The notes under the pieces: model-generated
Databases searched by the model: none
The model's input: only the letters and a program-made list of their open reading frames with translations
Told to the model about the DNA's origin: nothing
Origin: Aminobacter niigataensis
Lineage (GTDB): Bacteria > Pseudomonadota > Alphaproteobacteria > Rhizobiales > Rhizobiaceae
Assembly: GCF_014200015.1 (NCBI RefSeq)
Contig: NZ_JACHOT010000001.1
Location: 372,001-436,000, forward strand
Reading direction: 5' to 3'
DNA length: 64,000 nucleotides
Part shown: positions 21,138 to 28,309 of the stretch, in pieces
Layout: every line of letters begins with the position of its first letter
Position numbering within the stretch: the first letter of the stretch is position 1
Made by a program: the position numbers and the translations under genes

Positions 21138-22787
<1,650 letters not shown>

Positions 22788-22804
22788 GCTCCAGACTATT
22801 CCAA

Positions 22805-22827
22805 GCGCCCCGCCAAAAGCGGGGCGC
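22805..22827. terminator. hairpin after ettA, shared with the convergent hydrolase gene
   Basis: GCGCCCCGC and GCGGGGCGC are perfect 9-bp inverted copies around CAAAA. The downstream side is only moderately T-rich. The position between convergent stops fits a terminator. Confidence 0.75.
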
Positions 22828-22857
22828 AATTGGTTTGGTGTGCGGAAACCCGGCCGG

Positions 22858-23682
22858 TCAACCCATCAATGCGGCGATGCGGGACGGATCAGGTTCGCGG
22901 GCGAGATTGAATATCTCGGCGTGAAAGCCGCCAAGCTTTCCCTTGTCTTTAAGGACCATGGGAAAGTTGTGCTTGCGGCCGGGTACGCCAATTCTGTGGC
23001 TTGCGGGTGCGATTGCCGCGAGCTTGGCCGCGTGGTCGAGGTCTTCGCGGCAGCCCACACTGTACAGGAGATAGCAGCGCGTCGTCAGTGGCGAGCGGCA
23101 GTTGCAGAGCGTGTCGAACGCGCCAACCCGCAGGCCCTTTGCCATCGACCCGGGATGCCAGGCATATCTGCCACCGACGCTGATCGCCCGATCGGCGCCC
23201 ATGAGGTTGCCGGCCCGAATGGCAGGAAATCCGCCCATGCTGGTGCCGTAGGTCATGATCGACCGATAGCCGCGTTCGCGGGCCAGGTTGCCGACGCGCA
23301 ATGCCAGATCGCGCATCGAGGAAGCAAATCCCTCGATGCCGCCGTCGAAGAATTCACGCCTGGGATCGGCCAGTTGCAGGAAGTCATGCTGGGCATCGTC
23401 CAGATCTTCGAGGAACAGCGCCGCGCCCATCATGATGAAGCCATGCTTGGTAGCGAAGCCGACGATGAGATTGGGCGCGCTGCGCCCGGCAGAGTAGAGA
23501 TTGACGTGCGTTGCGATTTCCGTGCGCGAGAAGCGCGTCAGCGGCGGTTCGCCCGAGCTCAACAGGCCGAAACGGACAAGATTCTTCACGATCCCGTTGC
23601 TGCGCGGCAACCTCAACCCAAAGCTGGGCGAAGCCGCTTCGGCGGCGACTTCCGAAGCGGATCGTCTGCGGAACTTAAACAC
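22858..23682 (-). CDS. alpha/beta-hydrolase-like protein, third gene of the P450-ACP operon
   Basis: This protein of unknown specificity has 274 residues. A nucleophile elbow is visible (TYGTSMGGFPAI, Ser in GTSMGG). A late His (GRKHNFP) could complete a Ser-His triad, so a small alpha/beta hydrolase or thioesterase is likely. The GTG start at 23682 is chosen because it overlaps the stop of the acyl carrier protein gene by 8 bp; the frame is open upstream inside that gene. After a P450 and an ACP, a thioesterase releasing an acyl product from the carrier is plausible. That is inference from order only. Confidence 0.6.
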   Translation of the reverse strand: MFKFRRRSASEVAAEAASPSFGLRLPRSNGIVKNLVRFGLLSSGEPPLTRFSRTEIATHVNLYSAGRSAPNLIVGFATKHGFIMMGAALFLEDLDDAQHDFLQLADPRREFFDGGIEGFASSMRDLALRVGNLARERGYRSIMTYGTSMGGFPAIRAGNLMGADRAISVGGRYAWHPGSMAKGLRVGAFDTLCNCRSPLTTRCYLLYSVGCREDLDHAAKLAAIAPASHRIGVPGRKHNFPMVLKDKGKLGGFHAEIFNLAREPDPSRIAALMG

Positions 23683-23935
23683 GCGCAGTCGAGATGAGGG
23701 CTGCAAGCTCGCCGACATTGGCGCAGCCGTTGACGGCTTCTTCGTCGAGCACAACGTCGAAGCGCTCTTCCAAGCCCATCACGTATTCCATGGTGGTGAG
23801 GCTGTCGACGTCGAAAGATTCTATCGGATTGGACAGTATCTGCGCATCCGATATGCCGCCGCCGTGGCTTGAGCTGTTCAAGCCGGCTATGTCGCGGAAC
23901 ATCTCGACGCAGACCAGGCGAACATCTTCAGTCAT
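23675..23935 (-). CDS. acyl carrier protein
   Basis: This is a carrier protein of 86 residues. The phosphopantetheine site is D-S-L with Ser 45 in ESFDVDSLTTMEYVMGLEERFDV, the four-helix ACP/PCP pattern; the last helix ends in the GELAALI area. It is acidic, and is distinct from the housekeeping fatty-acid AcpP, which would sit with fabD/fabG/fabF. The ATG at 23935 overlaps the stop of the P450 gene by 8 bp, and its own stop overlaps the hydrolase start. The three proteins are therefore probably made in fixed ratio and work together, with the ACP tethering the P450 substrate. Confidence 0.85.
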   Translation of the reverse strand: MTEDVRLVCVEMFRDIAGLNSSSHGGGISDAQILSNPIESFDVDSLTTMEYVMGLEERFDVVLDEEAVNGCANVGELAALISTARV

Positions 23936-24962
23936 GGATGGTGACTCGCGCAAATTCGGGGAAGCTGAAGGCATAGTCGCCCGTTCTCATCTTGATCTCA
24001 CCAACGGTGAATTTCCGTGAGTTGGCCGACAAGGCTTTGATCAGGCTGCTCCAGATCGTGAGGGTTGCCGGCTTTCCCAAGCAAAGGTGACGCCCCTTGC
24101 CGAACAGCAGATCTGCCTGGTCTTCGGAAACATGGTAGGCGGTCGCGTCGATCATCAGCCGTACGCGTTGCCCCTTGCTCACGATCAAGCCGCCGATTTC
24201 CACGTCCTCGGCCGCTACCCTTTCGATGTACGGGACGCCGGTCGAGGGCAAATTGTCGGGATAGTCGATTTCATCGAGACGCTTGCCGGCGTTGCGCGCC
24301 AGTGTGTGCCACAACGACAGCGCAATCGAGCCAATGAGGGCGTCGTTGCCAAGTATGTTCATGGCGACGGCGATCTCCGGCGTCGTCGGTAGCCGGGTTT
24401 CCTGCGAGGCAAAAGCGCAGGTCATGGCCGCAACCTGATCATTCACGCCTTTGCGGCGGTTCAGACTCAGCACCATGTCGAAGACTTGCGAAACATTCAT
24501 ATGCCCGACAAGTTCAGCCTGCTCTAGGCCGAACCAGAGTGAGAACAATTTGTTGAAGATCGGCCCCGCAACGTCATGCACCAGATCGACATCACGTCCG
24601 CCGGTGAAGGTATTCGTTGCCAGCCCGGCAATGAAATTTTCGATAGCACGCAACTTGCTGCGGGAATCCGCGCCCACGACCGACGCGACCTGTCCGCGGA
24701 GATGTCGGTGGCGGCTGCCCTCATTTGCCAGCGGGACATGGTCAAGTGCTGCGATGCTCGCATCGAAATTGAACTTGGTGCGATCTGCTATCTGGCGATA
24801 ATGATCGGCAAAAGCGATAACCTTGAATCGATCCGATCGAAATATTTCGGATATGAGATTTTTATCGAAAACGCATATACATCTTAACTTTTCGTCGAAA
24901 CGAAACGGATGCATGCTCAGGTATACATCAGCTCGGTCGGGATCGTGATGGATCTTTAGCAT
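23928..24962 (-). CDS. cytochrome P450, short and atypical
   Basis: This is a haem monooxygenase of 344 residues (most bacterial P450s have about 390-410). The haem loop is clear: LLFGKGRHLCLGKP with the thiolate Cys 294. The I-helix reads I-L-G-N-D-A-L (G205 to L209), so the usual acid-threonine pair is D207-A208. No clean ExxR is visible before the haem loop; IERVAAEDVEI is the nearest. It is the first gene of a coupled operon with an ACP and a hydrolase. P450s that act on ACP-bound acyl chains are known (BioI type). This one may do so too, but could also be a non-monooxygenase relative. Confidence 0.82.
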   Translation of the reverse strand: MLKIHHDPDRADVYLSMHPFRFDEKLRCICVFDKNLISEIFRSDRFKVIAFADHYRQIADRTKFNFDASIAALDHVPLANEGSRHRHLRGQVASVVGADSRSKLRAIENFIAGLATNTFTGGRDVDLVHDVAGPIFNKLFSLWFGLEQAELVGHMNVSQVFDMVLSLNRRKGVNDQVAAMTCAFASQETRLPTTPEIAVAMNILGNDALIGSIALSLWHTLARNAGKRLDEIDYPDNLPSTGVPYIERVAAEDVEIGGLIVSKGQRVRLMIDATAYHVSEDQADLLFGKGRHLCLGKPATLTIWSSLIKALSANSRKFTVGEIKMRTGDYAFSFPEFARVTIHD

Positions 24963-25208
24963 TGGCGGCTGCTGTGCATGTAGAACTCACTTCTCGTAGC
25001 GGATTCAACTTGGCAGCTCAAGCAGGTTCGCGTATTCCGCGCATCGGCTTGACCTAGTTCAGCGAAAAGTTGGTATTCAAATGCGAGAAGGCCGACGATG
25101 ATGGCGATGCGAAACCGATTCCGGAATTGCAGTCGATGCGCTAGACGTCAGTAAGATTGTGCAGGCGGTGTTCCAGTGACCGCACGAGAATTGGACGGAC
25201 AGTACTTC
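24963..25208. promoter_or_regulatory. divergent intergenic region between the P450 operon and KAS III gene
   Basis: This is a 246-bp gap. Together with the start of the P450 gene (about 24,780-24,960) it is visibly richer in A/T than the rest of the window. Promoters for both directions should lie here. I could not fix -10/-35 boxes with confidence. Confidence 0.35.
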
Positions 25209-26330
25209 ATGCATCGCGTCATCATCAGCGGTATCGGCGTTGAAATCCCCGAGGCGTCGATCAGCAACGACGAATTGGTCGAGAGCTTCAACGCCTGGGT
25301 CGACATCGAGAACGCCAGGAGGCAGGCCGCCGGCGAGGAACTGGTCCGCAAGTCGGACAGCGAGTTCATCGTCTATGCCTCGGGGGTGAAAAACCGCCAC
25401 GTCCACACGCTTGACGGCATTCTCGACCCCCAACGCATGGCGCCACGCATTCCGCCACGCGCCGACGACGCATTGTCTGTCGAAGCCGAGTTCGGCGTCG
25501 CCTCGGCGCGCAAGGCGCTCGACCATGCCGGGCTGACTGGCGCCGACATCGACATGGTGATCTGTGCCGCCTCGCACCAGCAGCGGCCTTATCCGGCGAT
25601 ATCGATCGAGATCCAGAAGGAACTGGGCATCGAAGGTGCGGCCTTCGACATGAGCCTCGGCTGCTCGTCGTCGGCGGCGGCGCTGCATGTCGCCTTCAAC
25701 CTGGTGCGCTCGGGCGGGCAGAAGCGCGTGCTGATCGTCACGCCCGAGATCATCACCGGCCATCTCAACTTCCGCGACCGGCAGACGCATTTCATCTTCG
25801 GCGATGCCTCGGTGGCGATGGTGGTAGAGGCGATTGGGCCGAAGGAGACGCGGCCCGGGCGCTTCGAGATCATCGATACGCGCAACTGGACGCAGTTCTC
25901 CAACAACATCCGCACCAATTTCGGCTTCCTGCTGCGTGCCGGCCAGGAAAACACCTCCGTCGTCGAGATGGAGGGCAACATGATCAAGCAGGTGGGCAAC
26001 AAGGTGTTCAAGGAGGTGACGCATGCGGCGCACCGCTTCATCACCGCCTTCCTCGCCGACCACGGCATGACGCCATCAGACGTCAGGCGCTACTGGCTGC
26101 ACCAGGCCAATGCGCGCATGAACGCCATGATCCTGAAGCTGGCGCTCGGCCACGAGGCCGACCAGGACACCGCACCGATGGTTCTGGAGCGGCTGGGCAA
26201 CACGGCCGCGGCCGGCGCCATCATCGCGCTCAAGGAAAACCACGAGGACATGAAGGCGGGCGAGCACGGGTTGATCTGCGCCTTCGGCGCCGGTTATTCG
26301 ATCGGCGGCGCCCTGGTGCGGATGCACTGA
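25209..26330 (+). CDS. beta-ketoacyl-ACP synthase III-like enzyme
   Basis: This is a FabH-fold condensing enzyme of 373 residues with the full Cys-His-Asn triad: C152 in LGCSSSAA, H298 in WLHQANARM and N331 in ERLGNTAAAG. FabH-type enzymes condense an acyl-CoA primer with malonyl-ACP. This one is longer than FabH (about 320) and has an N-terminal insertion (about 30-75), as in FabH paralogues that make special acyl chains. The ATG at 25209 is preferred over the GTG at 25176 because homologous proteins start just before RVIISGIG. It is divergent from the P450/ACP/hydrolase operon, so a joint acyl-modification pathway is possible. Confidence 0.83.
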   Translation: MHRVIISGIGVEIPEASISNDELVESFNAWVDIENARRQAAGEELVRKSDSEFIVYASGVKNRHVHTLDGILDPQRMAPRIPPRADDALSVEAEFGVASARKALDHAGLTGADIDMVICAASHQQRPYPAISIEIQKELGIEGAAFDMSLGCSSSAAALHVAFNLVRSGGQKRVLIVTPEIITGHLNFRDRQTHFIFGDASVAMVVEAIGPKETRPGRFEIIDTRNWTQFSNNIRTNFGFLLRAGQENTSVVEMEGNMIKQVGNKVFKEVTHAAHRFITAFLADHGMTPSDVRRYWLHQANARMNAMILKLALGHEADQDTAPMVLERLGNTAAAGAIIALKENHEDMKAGEHGLICAFGAGYSIGGALVRMH

Positions 26331-26423
26331 CGCATCAGTCCGGGTGATGCCGGGATCAGGCTTTTTGTCTGGATTTTCTGTGGGCTGATTGGCAATGTGC
26401 CGCCTCTAATTGAGAGGCAAAAG

Positions 26424-27041
26424 ATGCTCGATCCGACGATGCGCAGGGAAGGCGAACCCGAAATCCTGCCCGGCAGGAAGCTCGCCGCGCGCGTCGCTGG
26501 CGTCTACACCGCGCCCTTCGACCATTTTGTCACCCGGGCAGTGGGAACGCTGCCGCTGAGCTTCGAGGGCATCGACGGCGATTTTCATGCCGGGCATGTC
26601 AGGCGGTCGGGCGGGCGCGAGCCGTGGTATCCGCGCGGCACCGAAATGCGCAACGAGCGGCAGCTTTCCATCGTGGCGCCCGACGAACTGGCCGTCGTCG
26701 CCGAGCGCATGGGGCTCACCGAGATCAAGCCGGAGTGGATCGGCGCCAACCTCCTGCTCGACGGCGTGCCGATGCTGTCGATGCTGCCTTCCGGCACCAT
26801 GCTGTTCTTCAAGGGTGGCGTGACGATCAAAATCGATGGACAGAATGCTCCGTGTCGCCTCGCCGGGCGCTCGATCGCCGAGCATGCCCGCATGGCCGAC
26901 CACGACGCCGGCTCGCTGATGTTCCCCAAGGCCGCAAAGCGCCTGCGCGGGCTGGTCGCCTGGGTGGAAAAGCCCGGCGTGATCGCGGCCGGCGAAGAGG
27001 TCTCGGTGCGGGTTCCCGAGCAGTGGATCTACAGGGCCTAG
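26424..27041 (+). CDS. MOSC-domain protein
   Basis: This is a MOSC (molybdenum cofactor sulfurase C-terminal) domain protein of 205 residues. It carries the conserved Cys in NAPCRLAGRSIAEH and the region GANLLLDGVPMLSMLPSGTMLFF. Family members handle molybdenum-cofactor-bound sulfur or reduce N-hydroxylated compounds; the exact role here is unknown. The ATG at 26424 follows GAGAGG by 7 bases and is preferred over a GTG at 26397. Its stop overlaps the stop of the convergent YwqK-like gene (CTAG, 27038-27041). Confidence 0.82.
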   Translation: MLDPTMRREGEPEILPGRKLAARVAGVYTAPFDHFVTRAVGTLPLSFEGIDGDFHAGHVRRSGGREPWYPRGTEMRNERQLSIVAPDELAVVAERMGLTEIKPEWIGANLLLDGVPMLSMLPSGTMLFFKGGVTIKIDGQNAPCRLAGRSIAEHARMADHDAGSLMFPKAAKRLRGLVAWVEKPGVIAAGEEVSVRVPEQWIYRA

Positions 27042-27385
27042 CCCGTCAGCGGGGGAGGCCTGCGCCAGTCAGCGGGTTGTCCGCTTGGGACGGCCGCCTT
27101 CCTGATGGTGGTGACCTTGTAGACCTTGCCTGCCTTGTCATAGGTCGTCCATTCGCCGACCTGGACGCCTTTGGAAAAATGGCCGGAACGCAGTTTCGTG
27201 CCGTCCTTGCGGAACCATTCCCAATAGCCGTCGGCCTGGCCGGCACGCAACTGGCCGACGACCCACAGGCTGCCGTCCTTGTGATGATGACGATAGGGTT
27301 CAGTGCTTTCGGTGATGCGCTTGCTCCTCTCAAGCTGCGATGCGCCGGAGGAAAGCAGAGATGGCGCGAGCGGGCAATGGGCCAA
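27038..27385 (-). CDS. YwqK/MORN-repeat-like small protein
   Basis: This is a small protein with MORN-type repeats (HHKDGSLWVVGQLRAGQADGYWEWFRKDGTKLRSGHFSKGVQVGEWTTYD), as in proteins annotated 'YwqK family antitoxin'. The role is unknown. The start is a puzzle. The only conventional start is a TTG at 27385 without a ribosome site. A strong GAGAGGAG lies 7 bases before an ATC codon at 27316, from which the protein would read (I)TESTEPYRHHHKDG. It is the last gene of a minus-strand run after trmO and a DUF2293 gene. Confidence 0.7.
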   Translation of the reverse strand: MAHCPLAPSLLSSGASQLERSKRITESTEPYRHHHKDGSLWVVGQLRAGQADGYWEWFRKDGTKLRSGHFSKGVQVGEWTTYDKAGKVYKVTTIRKAAVPSGQPADWRRPPPLTG

Positions 27386-27405
27386 GGATACGCGCGGCCG
27401 GGTGA

Positions 27406-27720
27406 CTAGACGTCCTCGTCGTCGGGATCGAGCAGCCGCGTGGCGCGCCAGCGGGTGAGGGTGGCGTTGATCTGGCCGATGACGAAGAAGCGGGCGGAAT
27501 CGCGGTCGTAGCCTTCCGACAGGAGCTTTTCGTAGTCGCTGTGGGCGTGGCGGACATGGGCGACGGTCGCCAGCCAGACGGCGATGGAAGGTGGCAGCGT
27601 CTTCATGTGCACGGCGAGCGCGTCGGCGCGGATGGCCTCCGTGTCCGCGTAGGGCGCCAGCGGCAGCAGTGCTGTCAGCGACCTGGCAACAGCGCGGCGG
27701 CGGCCGGTGGGTGCAGCCAT
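27406..27720 (-). CDS. DUF2293 domain protein
   Basis: This protein of unknown function has 104 residues, mostly helical and basic at the N-terminus. The central HVRHAHSDYEKLLSEGYDRDSARFFV and WRATRLLDPDDE are typical of DUF2293. It begins 2 bp after the trmO stop, so the two are co-transcribed. No catalytic residues can be named. Confidence 0.78.
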   Translation of the reverse strand: MAAPTGRRRAVARSLTALLPLAPYADTEAIRADALAVHMKTLPPSIAVWLATVAHVRHAHSDYEKLLSEGYDRDSARFFVIGQINATLTRWRATRLLDPDDEDV

Positions 27721-27722
27721 GC

Positions 27723-28229
27723 TCAGGTGTCCTTGCTCGGACGCGAAGCGTCCGGAAAGGCGTCGACGGATGCGAAATAGGGTTTCAGGTCGATGACGGG
27801 GGTGCCATCGAGCGCGTCAATGGCATCGAGCTCGATCACCCCGGTTTCGACGTCGAGCGCAACGATGCGGGCGACATGCATTCCAATGGGGTTGGGCCGG
27901 GCAGGCGAGCGAAGGGCGAAAACGCCTTTTGCTTCAGTTGCATGGCGCGGTTTTTGCACAATCAGATTCCGCGGCGCCTTTTCGAACCAACTGAGGATGA
28001 CGACGTGGCTGAAGCCGGCCAGCCCGGCGAGGCCCGGCCGGTAGAGCTCGTCGACGGTGACGGTTGCGCCGCCGCCGCGCTCGCGTGCGGCATCCATGTT
28101 CTTGGGGCACTCCTCGCGCAGCTTCCACGGCGAGGTGATGCGGCCGATATAGGCAAGGCTGGCGTCGGACGACTGCGCGGGATCGCCGGTCAGCGCAATC
28201 TCGCCCTCGCGCTGTTCGAACATCTGCAT
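27723..28229 (-). CDS. trmO: tRNA (N6-threonylcarbamoyladenosine-37) N6-methyltransferase TrmO
   Basis: This SAM-dependent enzyme of 168 residues methylates t6A37 of ACY-decoding tRNA. Family marks are IGRITSPWKLREECPKN at the N-terminus, GFSHVVILSWF and the signature FALRSPARPNPIGMHVARIVALD. The start at 28229 is set by a strong GGGAGGGG about 5 bases upstream; ATGs further up (28253, 28286) lack one. It is the first gene of a trmO, DUF2293, YwqK unit. It is divergent from the ArsR-methyltransferase operon. Confidence 0.88.
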   Translation of the reverse strand: MQMFEQREGEIALTGDPAQSSDASLAYIGRITSPWKLREECPKNMDAARERGGGATVTVDELYRPGLAGLAGFSHVVILSWFEKAPRNLIVQKPRHATEAKGVFALRSPARPNPIGMHVARIVALDVETGVIELDAIDALDGTPVIDLKPYFASVDAFPDASRPSKDT

Positions 28230-28280
28230 AGGCCCCTCCCACTGTCGCGCCATTTTCTTGCCCGCATGCGACATTGGGCG

Positions 28281-28309
28281 TTGCAATCGCTCGCTTCGTC
28301 ACATAAAGA
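28281..28309 (+). promoter_or_regulatory. candidate promoter of the ArsR-methyltransferase/metF operon
   Basis: TTGCAA (28281-28286) is followed after 17 bases by TAAAGA (28304-28309). The downstream element lies inside the operator palindrome, which would make repression simple. It was found by eye, and the match to consensus is moderate. Confidence 0.45.

Follow-up and report, generated by a model that had tools for sequence, protein, structure and literature searches.

A sporadic P450–acyl carrier protein–hydrolase cassette in Aminobacter niigataensis as a candidate module for the oxidation of carrier-bound acyl chains

Within a 64,000-nucleotide stretch of the Aminobacter niigataensis genome (assembly GCF_014200015.1, contig NZ_JACHOT010000001.1, positions 372,001 to 436,000; hereafter the window), three minus-strand genes spanning 24962 to 22858 encode a divergent cytochrome P450-like protein, an acyl carrier protein (ACP), and an alpha/beta-hydrolase-like protein. 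As claimed in the original prediction, which had been made from the sequence of this locus, they overlap by 8 bp each. The P450-like gene (23928..24962, 344 aa) ends inside the start of the ACP gene (23675..23935, 86 aa, ATG at 23935) at ATGACTGA, and the ACP gene in turn ends inside the GTG start of the hydrolase gene (22858..23682, 274 aa, GTG at 23682) at GTGTTTAA. The hydrolase open reading frame (ORF) has an alternative TTG start at 23754; the GTG is the start that produces an 8-bp overlap, in keeping with the short overlaps of its relatives. The P450/ACP/hydrolase operon is real, and its recurrence in other genomes forms the basis of the interpretation developed here.

Relatives of the P450 were found in 4 of 247 genomes of the family, the own genome included. 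On the level of the order, a four-row profile detected them in at least 14 of 397 genomes at E<=1e-8, three of which carry a more distant type (f41), and a search of the class (385 genomes) at 1e-12 returned at least seven, including the own genome, G970, and G653, the latter two contributing further cassette loci; the class hits G702, G759, G816, and G927 (50–68 bits) stand outside the cassette locus counts. Within the phylum (398 genomes, 1e-18), only the own genome was recovered among at most five scored candidates per genome. As this number of candidates applied to the order, class, and phylum searches as well as to the hydrolase search described below, the counts are lower bounds and the phylum result is weak evidence of absence. 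A profile search of contigs gave at least 45 loci, with cassette members in Gemmobacter (L052) and Cypionkella (L053); L054–L095 look like ordinary P450s, and L051 was treated as the same contig as that of G244. A single-protein P450 search of these contigs found no relative.

The resulting cassette set comprises 18 loci with 19 P450s (the window, L013, L014, L015, L052, L053, L096–L105, L118, and L119). At all 18 loci, and for all 19 P450s, an ACP gene overlaps or adjoins the P450 gene, the two being convergent at L100 and the ACP coming first at L119. Of 37 loci with ordinary P450s, in comparison, none had an ACP within 1.5 kb. The profile used for ACP detection was built from part of the set, 10 of the 19 cassette ACPs not being seeds; two f41 ACPs, likewise absent from the seeds, were also detected. 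The order P450–ACP–hydrolase is found at nine loci (the window, L052, L053, L099, L101–L104, and L118). The trio is thus kept together in other genomes, and the joint conservation on which the original prediction depended was found in further genomes of the order and in the more distant Gemmobacter and Cypionkella records. Two further peculiarities were noted within the set: the P450 of G970 is split over two reading frames (L118, 8653–9689), owing either to an error in sequencing or to decay of this copy, and L105 (5061–7619) holds two tandem P450–ACP pairs with neither type of third gene, near an O-antigen ligase-like gene.

The trio is under purifying selection in the two species pairs L101/L102 and L103/L104, with ratios of nonsynonymous to synonymous substitution of 0.15 and 0.20 (P450), 0.19 and 0.39 (ACP), and 0.26 and 0.25 (hydrolase), respectively. 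Pairwise identities of the P450 correlate with those of the hydrolase (Spearman 0.66, 8 loci) and of the ACP (Spearman 0.63), the pairs being not independent in either comparison. Judged from these sequence comparisons, the pattern suggests a self-contained cassette moving horizontally among distantly related bacteria.

The relationship of the first protein to P450s becomes visible only on family level. Taken alone, the window protein has no Pfam match at 0.1, and its matches in the PDB are weak (best E 0.015). A profile of 17 members, in comparison, detected 374 different sequences of the PDB at E<=1e-3, with 1.6e-19 as the best value; the 60 listed are all P450s, and alignment of the family to an annotated P450 by hhalign gave 5.9e-16. 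The haem loop FxxGx[HR]xCxG (FGKGRHLCLG in the window) retains F287, G290, Cys294, and G296 in 17/17 members, with position 292 being His in 15, as in the window, and Arg in two. Moreover, H85 and R89 of the C-helix motif HxxxR and Arg/Lys248 (R248 in the window) are present in all 17; three of the conserved haem-site residues align with residues of P450cam that bind the haem propionates. The acid of the I-helix motif (A/G)Gx(D/E)T is kept in 13 of 17. In the phylogenetic tree, 18 of 19 cassette P450s form one clade apart from ordinary P450s (support 98/94, midpoint root); the P450 of G061 (L015) lies on a long branch among the ordinary P450s, an argument against a single clade in the strict sense. 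The window P450 is unplaced inside the clade, its nearest neighbor being that of G578, from a cassette lacking the hydrolase. The profile matches and the conserved haem loop argue for a divergent group of haem-thiolate P450s, for which haem binding and monooxygenation are predicted.

The second protein is a small ACP. Scanned as a 99-aa ORF, the window ACP matches PF00550 at 4e-7 (30.6 bits versus a cut-off of 20.8) and carries its serine in the motif FDVDSLT. The carrier serine is present in 18/18 aligned ACPs and the preceding Asp in 17/18, so that loading with phosphopantetheine is predicted.

The third protein combines a nucleophile elbow of the GxSxG type (GTSMGG) with Ser148, Asp214, and His238, all three invariant in 8/8 aligned members, Asp214 and His238 being the probable remaining residues of the catalytic triad. 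Besides this triad, an unusual CxC motif (D190-x2-C193-x-C195) is equally invariant (8/8). Pfam matches are weak, with Hydrolase_4 below its cut-off, and the hydrolase of L118, which was absent from the profile seeds, scored 253 bits. At L096, a weak relative (34 bits, hhalign 1.9e-7) lies on the opposite strand beyond a cyclase gene. A search of 397 genomes for this hydrolase found it in at least 27 genomes at 1e-6, in at least 29 places, eight hits being strong (<=1e-40); those eight, the five next, and L096 were read. Six of the eight strong hits lie in P450–ACP cassettes, and the other two (G481 and G603) are directly beside an ACP, with no P450 of the cassette group in the 15-kb stretch. 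Among the seven non-cassette relatives read, four (L149–L152) adjoin an ACP and have no cassette-group P450 within about 15 kb. This frequent pairing with an ACP even where the P450 is missing favors an ACP-bound substrate of the hydrolase. Of these ACP–hydrolase pairs, L150 lies, by eye, near a peptidase-type ABC exporter-like gene.

At seven other loci (L013, L014, L015, L097, L098, L100, and L119), an unclassified protein of about 250–340 residues takes the place of the hydrolase. At L015, a copy stands on either side of the P450 and ACP genes, with one of the two copies on the opposite strand; at L100, the gene lies on the other strand, one gene beyond. No Pfam match was obtained for these proteins (seven proteins of six loci, plus that of L119). 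The eight proteins of the seven loci share one invariant His and are 13–25% identical to the first row of their alignment; since all eight seeded their own profile, a match to it is no proof of one family. A relation to LpxL-type acyltransferases, whose motif is HX4D/E, was considered and left unconfirmed, with neither PF03279 nor the motif seen and an hhalign E of 0.02 against an LpxL-type protein of the own genome.

Taken together, we propose that the dedicated holo-ACP would carry an acyl chain, that the divergent haem-thiolate P450 would oxidize this chain while it is tethered to the ACP, and that the Ser-Asp-His hydrolase would then remove it, either by release or by transfer to an acceptor. 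This final role may fall to a different protein in related cassettes. Such a mobile module for ACP-tethered oxidation plus release or transfer, BioI-like in its logic, is a reading for which we see about even chances. Its individual steps, i.e., loading of the holo-ACP, haem binding, hydroxylation, and thioester release, as well as a fatty acyl chain as substrate, are inferred, and they would correspond to the acyl-ACP oxidation with subsequent release put forward in the original prediction. A more far-reaching version, in which a P450 clade lacking ExxR acts only on its partner ACP and forms, with an exchangeable release enzyme, a mobile module of two to three genes making an oxidized acyl product in scattered alphaproteobacteria, is offered tentatively and with some doubt. 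By analogy, the f41 relative L108 fits an order of loading, hydroxylation, and capping, though it stands outside the cassette clade: its gene set comprises an acyl-AMP-ligase-like protein (best NCBIfam ligase models below cut-off), a fusion of two P450 domains, an ACP, and a carbamoyltransferase, the last of which would require an acceptor group, for example a hydroxyl. The double-P450 protein of L108 (6995–9169) has 724 aa, and the f41 genomes of L106 and L107 have similar P450 and ACP matches.

Several observations weigh against ACP-tethered oxidation by this module. The ExxR motif is lost in 15 of 17 P450s, being kept at the aligned place in L096 and L098 only (N237..S240 at the K-helix position in the window); ordinary P450s with the haem loop each have an ExxR at most 80 residues before it. 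The I-helix Thr is missing in 12 of 17 and present in five, with the window reading GND-A. As a consequence of both losses, normal oxygen activation is not assured. The AlphaFold2 (AF2) model of the P450 has a predicted local distance difference test score (pLDDT) of 56.6, and at this low confidence the Foldseek ranking obtained with it, led by P450BioI:acyl-ACP (E 2.6e-10, template modeling score 0.59, 11 of the top 20 chains), is a hint only. Weak matches to TIGR04515 by the window protein (2.9e-4, 20.3 bits versus a cut-off of 343), L101 (5.2e-7), and L097 (2.7e-4) point toward a non-catalytic P450. The hydrolase model has a pLDDT of 54.4, with Foldseek matches to alpha/beta hydrolases; among the hydrolase relatives, L155 has its ACP about 6 kb off, beside a weak P450 match, and L153 and L154 have no ACP near. 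Beside the window trio, neither a redox partner nor a loading enzyme was seen by eye. Finally, the control for the P450–ACP linkage, in which none of 37 ordinary-P450 loci had an ACP within 1.5 kb (one of them, the Sphingobium locus L012, about 4 kb off), consists mostly of Actinobacteria selected by the haem-loop pattern, and as only 4 of the 7 loci with carrier domains in the own genome were recovered by the ACP profile, the one in the window included, some control ACPs could be missed.

The motif losses in particular would be accommodated if the P450-like protein were no longer an oxygenase and instead docked to the ACP, as a haem-binding or structural partner, to recruit or activate the hydrolase or the alternative third protein, much as P450-derived helpers do for glycosyltransferases. 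The low Pfam recognition (4 of 17 members matched the P450 family at 0.1) and the faint TIGR04515 likeness point in the same direction. However, such glycosyltransferase activators typically lose the haem Cys, and in the cassette P450s this Cys and the three residues aligned to the haem-propionate ligands of P450cam are nearly invariant, and the acid at the I-helix kink is retained in 13 of 17. In addition, CYP157 is described as a family without EXXR that nevertheless counts among the P450s (PMC5018878). We consider a docking role unlikely, albeit worth keeping in view.

A comparably low probability is assigned to the idea that the module serves to decorate glycans or lipids of the cell surface, with the third protein being an acyltransferase of hydrolase fold that moves the oxidized chain to a sugar or lipid. 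It draws on gene neighborhoods: L101 has a sulfotransferase and a glycosyltransferase-like protein of two domains as neighbors (L102 alike by eye), which suggests that some products end on glycans, the ligase-like gene near L105 reaches 24.8 bits versus a Pfam cut-off of 31.7, and the annotated genes around the Sphingobium relative include pyruvyl- and glycosyltransferases. On the other hand, the cassettes of the window, L099, L103, and L104 are situated, by eye, amid unrelated housekeeping genes, and the faint LpxL likeness of the alternative third protein, itself without a Pfam match, adds little. A BioI-type supply of pimeloyl-ACP for biotin, with the P450 cleaving a long acyl-ACP, is very improbable in spite of the best Foldseek match: no biotin gene is among the scanned window neighbors (21138–28286), none was seen by eye at the other loci, the own genome not having been searched for biotin genes, the cassette has a sporadic distribution (1 of 10 genus genomes), and pimeloyl-ACP is reportedly produced with BioZ in alphaproteobacteria (PMC7645780).

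The original prediction had further included the neighboring ketoacyl synthase III (KAS III) as maker or primer of the chain. Its description holds: the gene (25209..26330, plus strand, 373 aa; NCBIfam NF005703, 496 bits versus a cut-off of 304) starts 246 bp from the P450 start on the divergent strand and encodes Cys152, His298, and Asn331. It is, however, a core gene of the genus, present in 10/10 genus genomes among 21 genomes searched (92–94% identity in the nine others), nine of which carry it without the P450. Beside the other cassette loci it was found at none of 20 searched (E<=1e-3), and of the 16 cassette genomes tested at E<=1e-80, a set outside which the L052 and L053 records and the f41 genomes lie, 13 lack it and three, including the own genome, have it. 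KAS III is unrelated backbone and not part of the cassette. Thus, of the four genes formerly taken as one set, P450, ACP, and hydrolase stand as a conserved unit, from which KAS III is excluded; its divergent position 246 bp away in this one genome speaks for a four-gene pathway primed by KAS III, which nevertheless deserves next to no credence. As a conserved unit this pathway is refuted, although a metabolic link peculiar to the strain is possible. All 10 genus genomes also carry a second KAS III paralogue, 45–47% identical to this one (noted at G000:C11:25212-26330).

On its other side, the trio converges with the backbone gene ettA (21138..22787, plus strand; NCBIfam NF008775, 930 bits versus a cut-off of 599), likewise outside the unit, with a terminator-like hairpin of 9 G-C pairs between them (22805..22827, plus strand). 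In the sister genome G249, the ettA and KAS III blocks are only 103 bp apart; the stretch 22837..25195 is therefore extra relative to G249, and the trio represents a 2.36-kb insertion missing from this empty site. In each of the eight remaining genomes of the genus, KAS III is flanked by a gene that by eye resembles a methyltransferase, the contig of one genome (L024) stopping short of ettA. Within the genus, this slot is hence variable, being empty in one genome, holding the methyltransferase-like gene in eight, and the P450 cassette here. The GC fraction is 0.49–0.54 around the 5' end of the P450 gene versus about 0.60–0.66 in most flanking segments. Repeats at the ends of the islet were looked for with nothing convincing found, the one pair being of 17 nt (22873–22889 / 25103–25119, 82%). 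The region has four terminator-like hairpins versus a mean of 2.3 in shuffles, and no sigma-70-like promoter was found.

No published description of the cassette was found in titles and abstract openings, the subscription literature being mostly outside reach. A survey of alphaproteobacterial P450s mined by CD-search contains neither "acyl carrier" nor "EXXR" in its main text (PMC8197338), and a Streptomyces survey requires both EXXR and CXG and sets other sequences aside as pseudo-P450s (PMC7369989). Action of a P450 on acyl-ACP is already known in kind from BioI; new are the ExxR-lacking clade tied to its own ACP, the mobile cassettes, and the alternative third genes. If true, ACP-tethered oxidation by this module would add a P450 clade that surveys based on EXXR and CXG discard and Pfam mostly misses, and would provide a small, readily testable model of how P450s act on carrier-bound substrates, for which two alternative third proteins exist in nature, one of them from a hydrolase family with an unusual invariant CxC.

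Among known systems, CYP157 resembles most cassette P450s in missing EXXR (PMC5018878); it is common in Streptomyces, the available text of PMC7369989 mentioning no ACP pairing, and the likeness is one by description. The glycosyltransferase activators of TIGR04515 have lost P450 motifs, too, and share a weak profile likeness (20–29 bits versus a cut-off of 343), whereas the haem Cys is kept in 17/17 cassette P450s. The clusters of Sphingobium pBSY17_1 and of the f41 locus L108 bring P450 and ACP together, as the cassette does, yet they contain an acyl-AMP-ligase-like gene, none of which is linked to the window trio by eye, and lie outside the cassette clade. KAS III enzymes of the PRK07515 type are of the same type as the neighboring gene of the window, which lies outside the cassette; BioZ is another KAS III. 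A further parallel is P450BioI (CYP107H1; PDB 3ejb/3ejd/3eje), likewise a haem-thiolate P450 acting on an ACP-bound chain, which provides the top Foldseek matches of the window P450 and is matched by the cassette profile at 5.3e-13 (3ejb). BioI has the ExxR motif, sits in a biotin operon, and uses the housekeeping ACP; unlike BioI, the cassette P450s have mostly lost ExxR (15/17) and are accompanied by an overlapping or adjoining ACP gene of their own.

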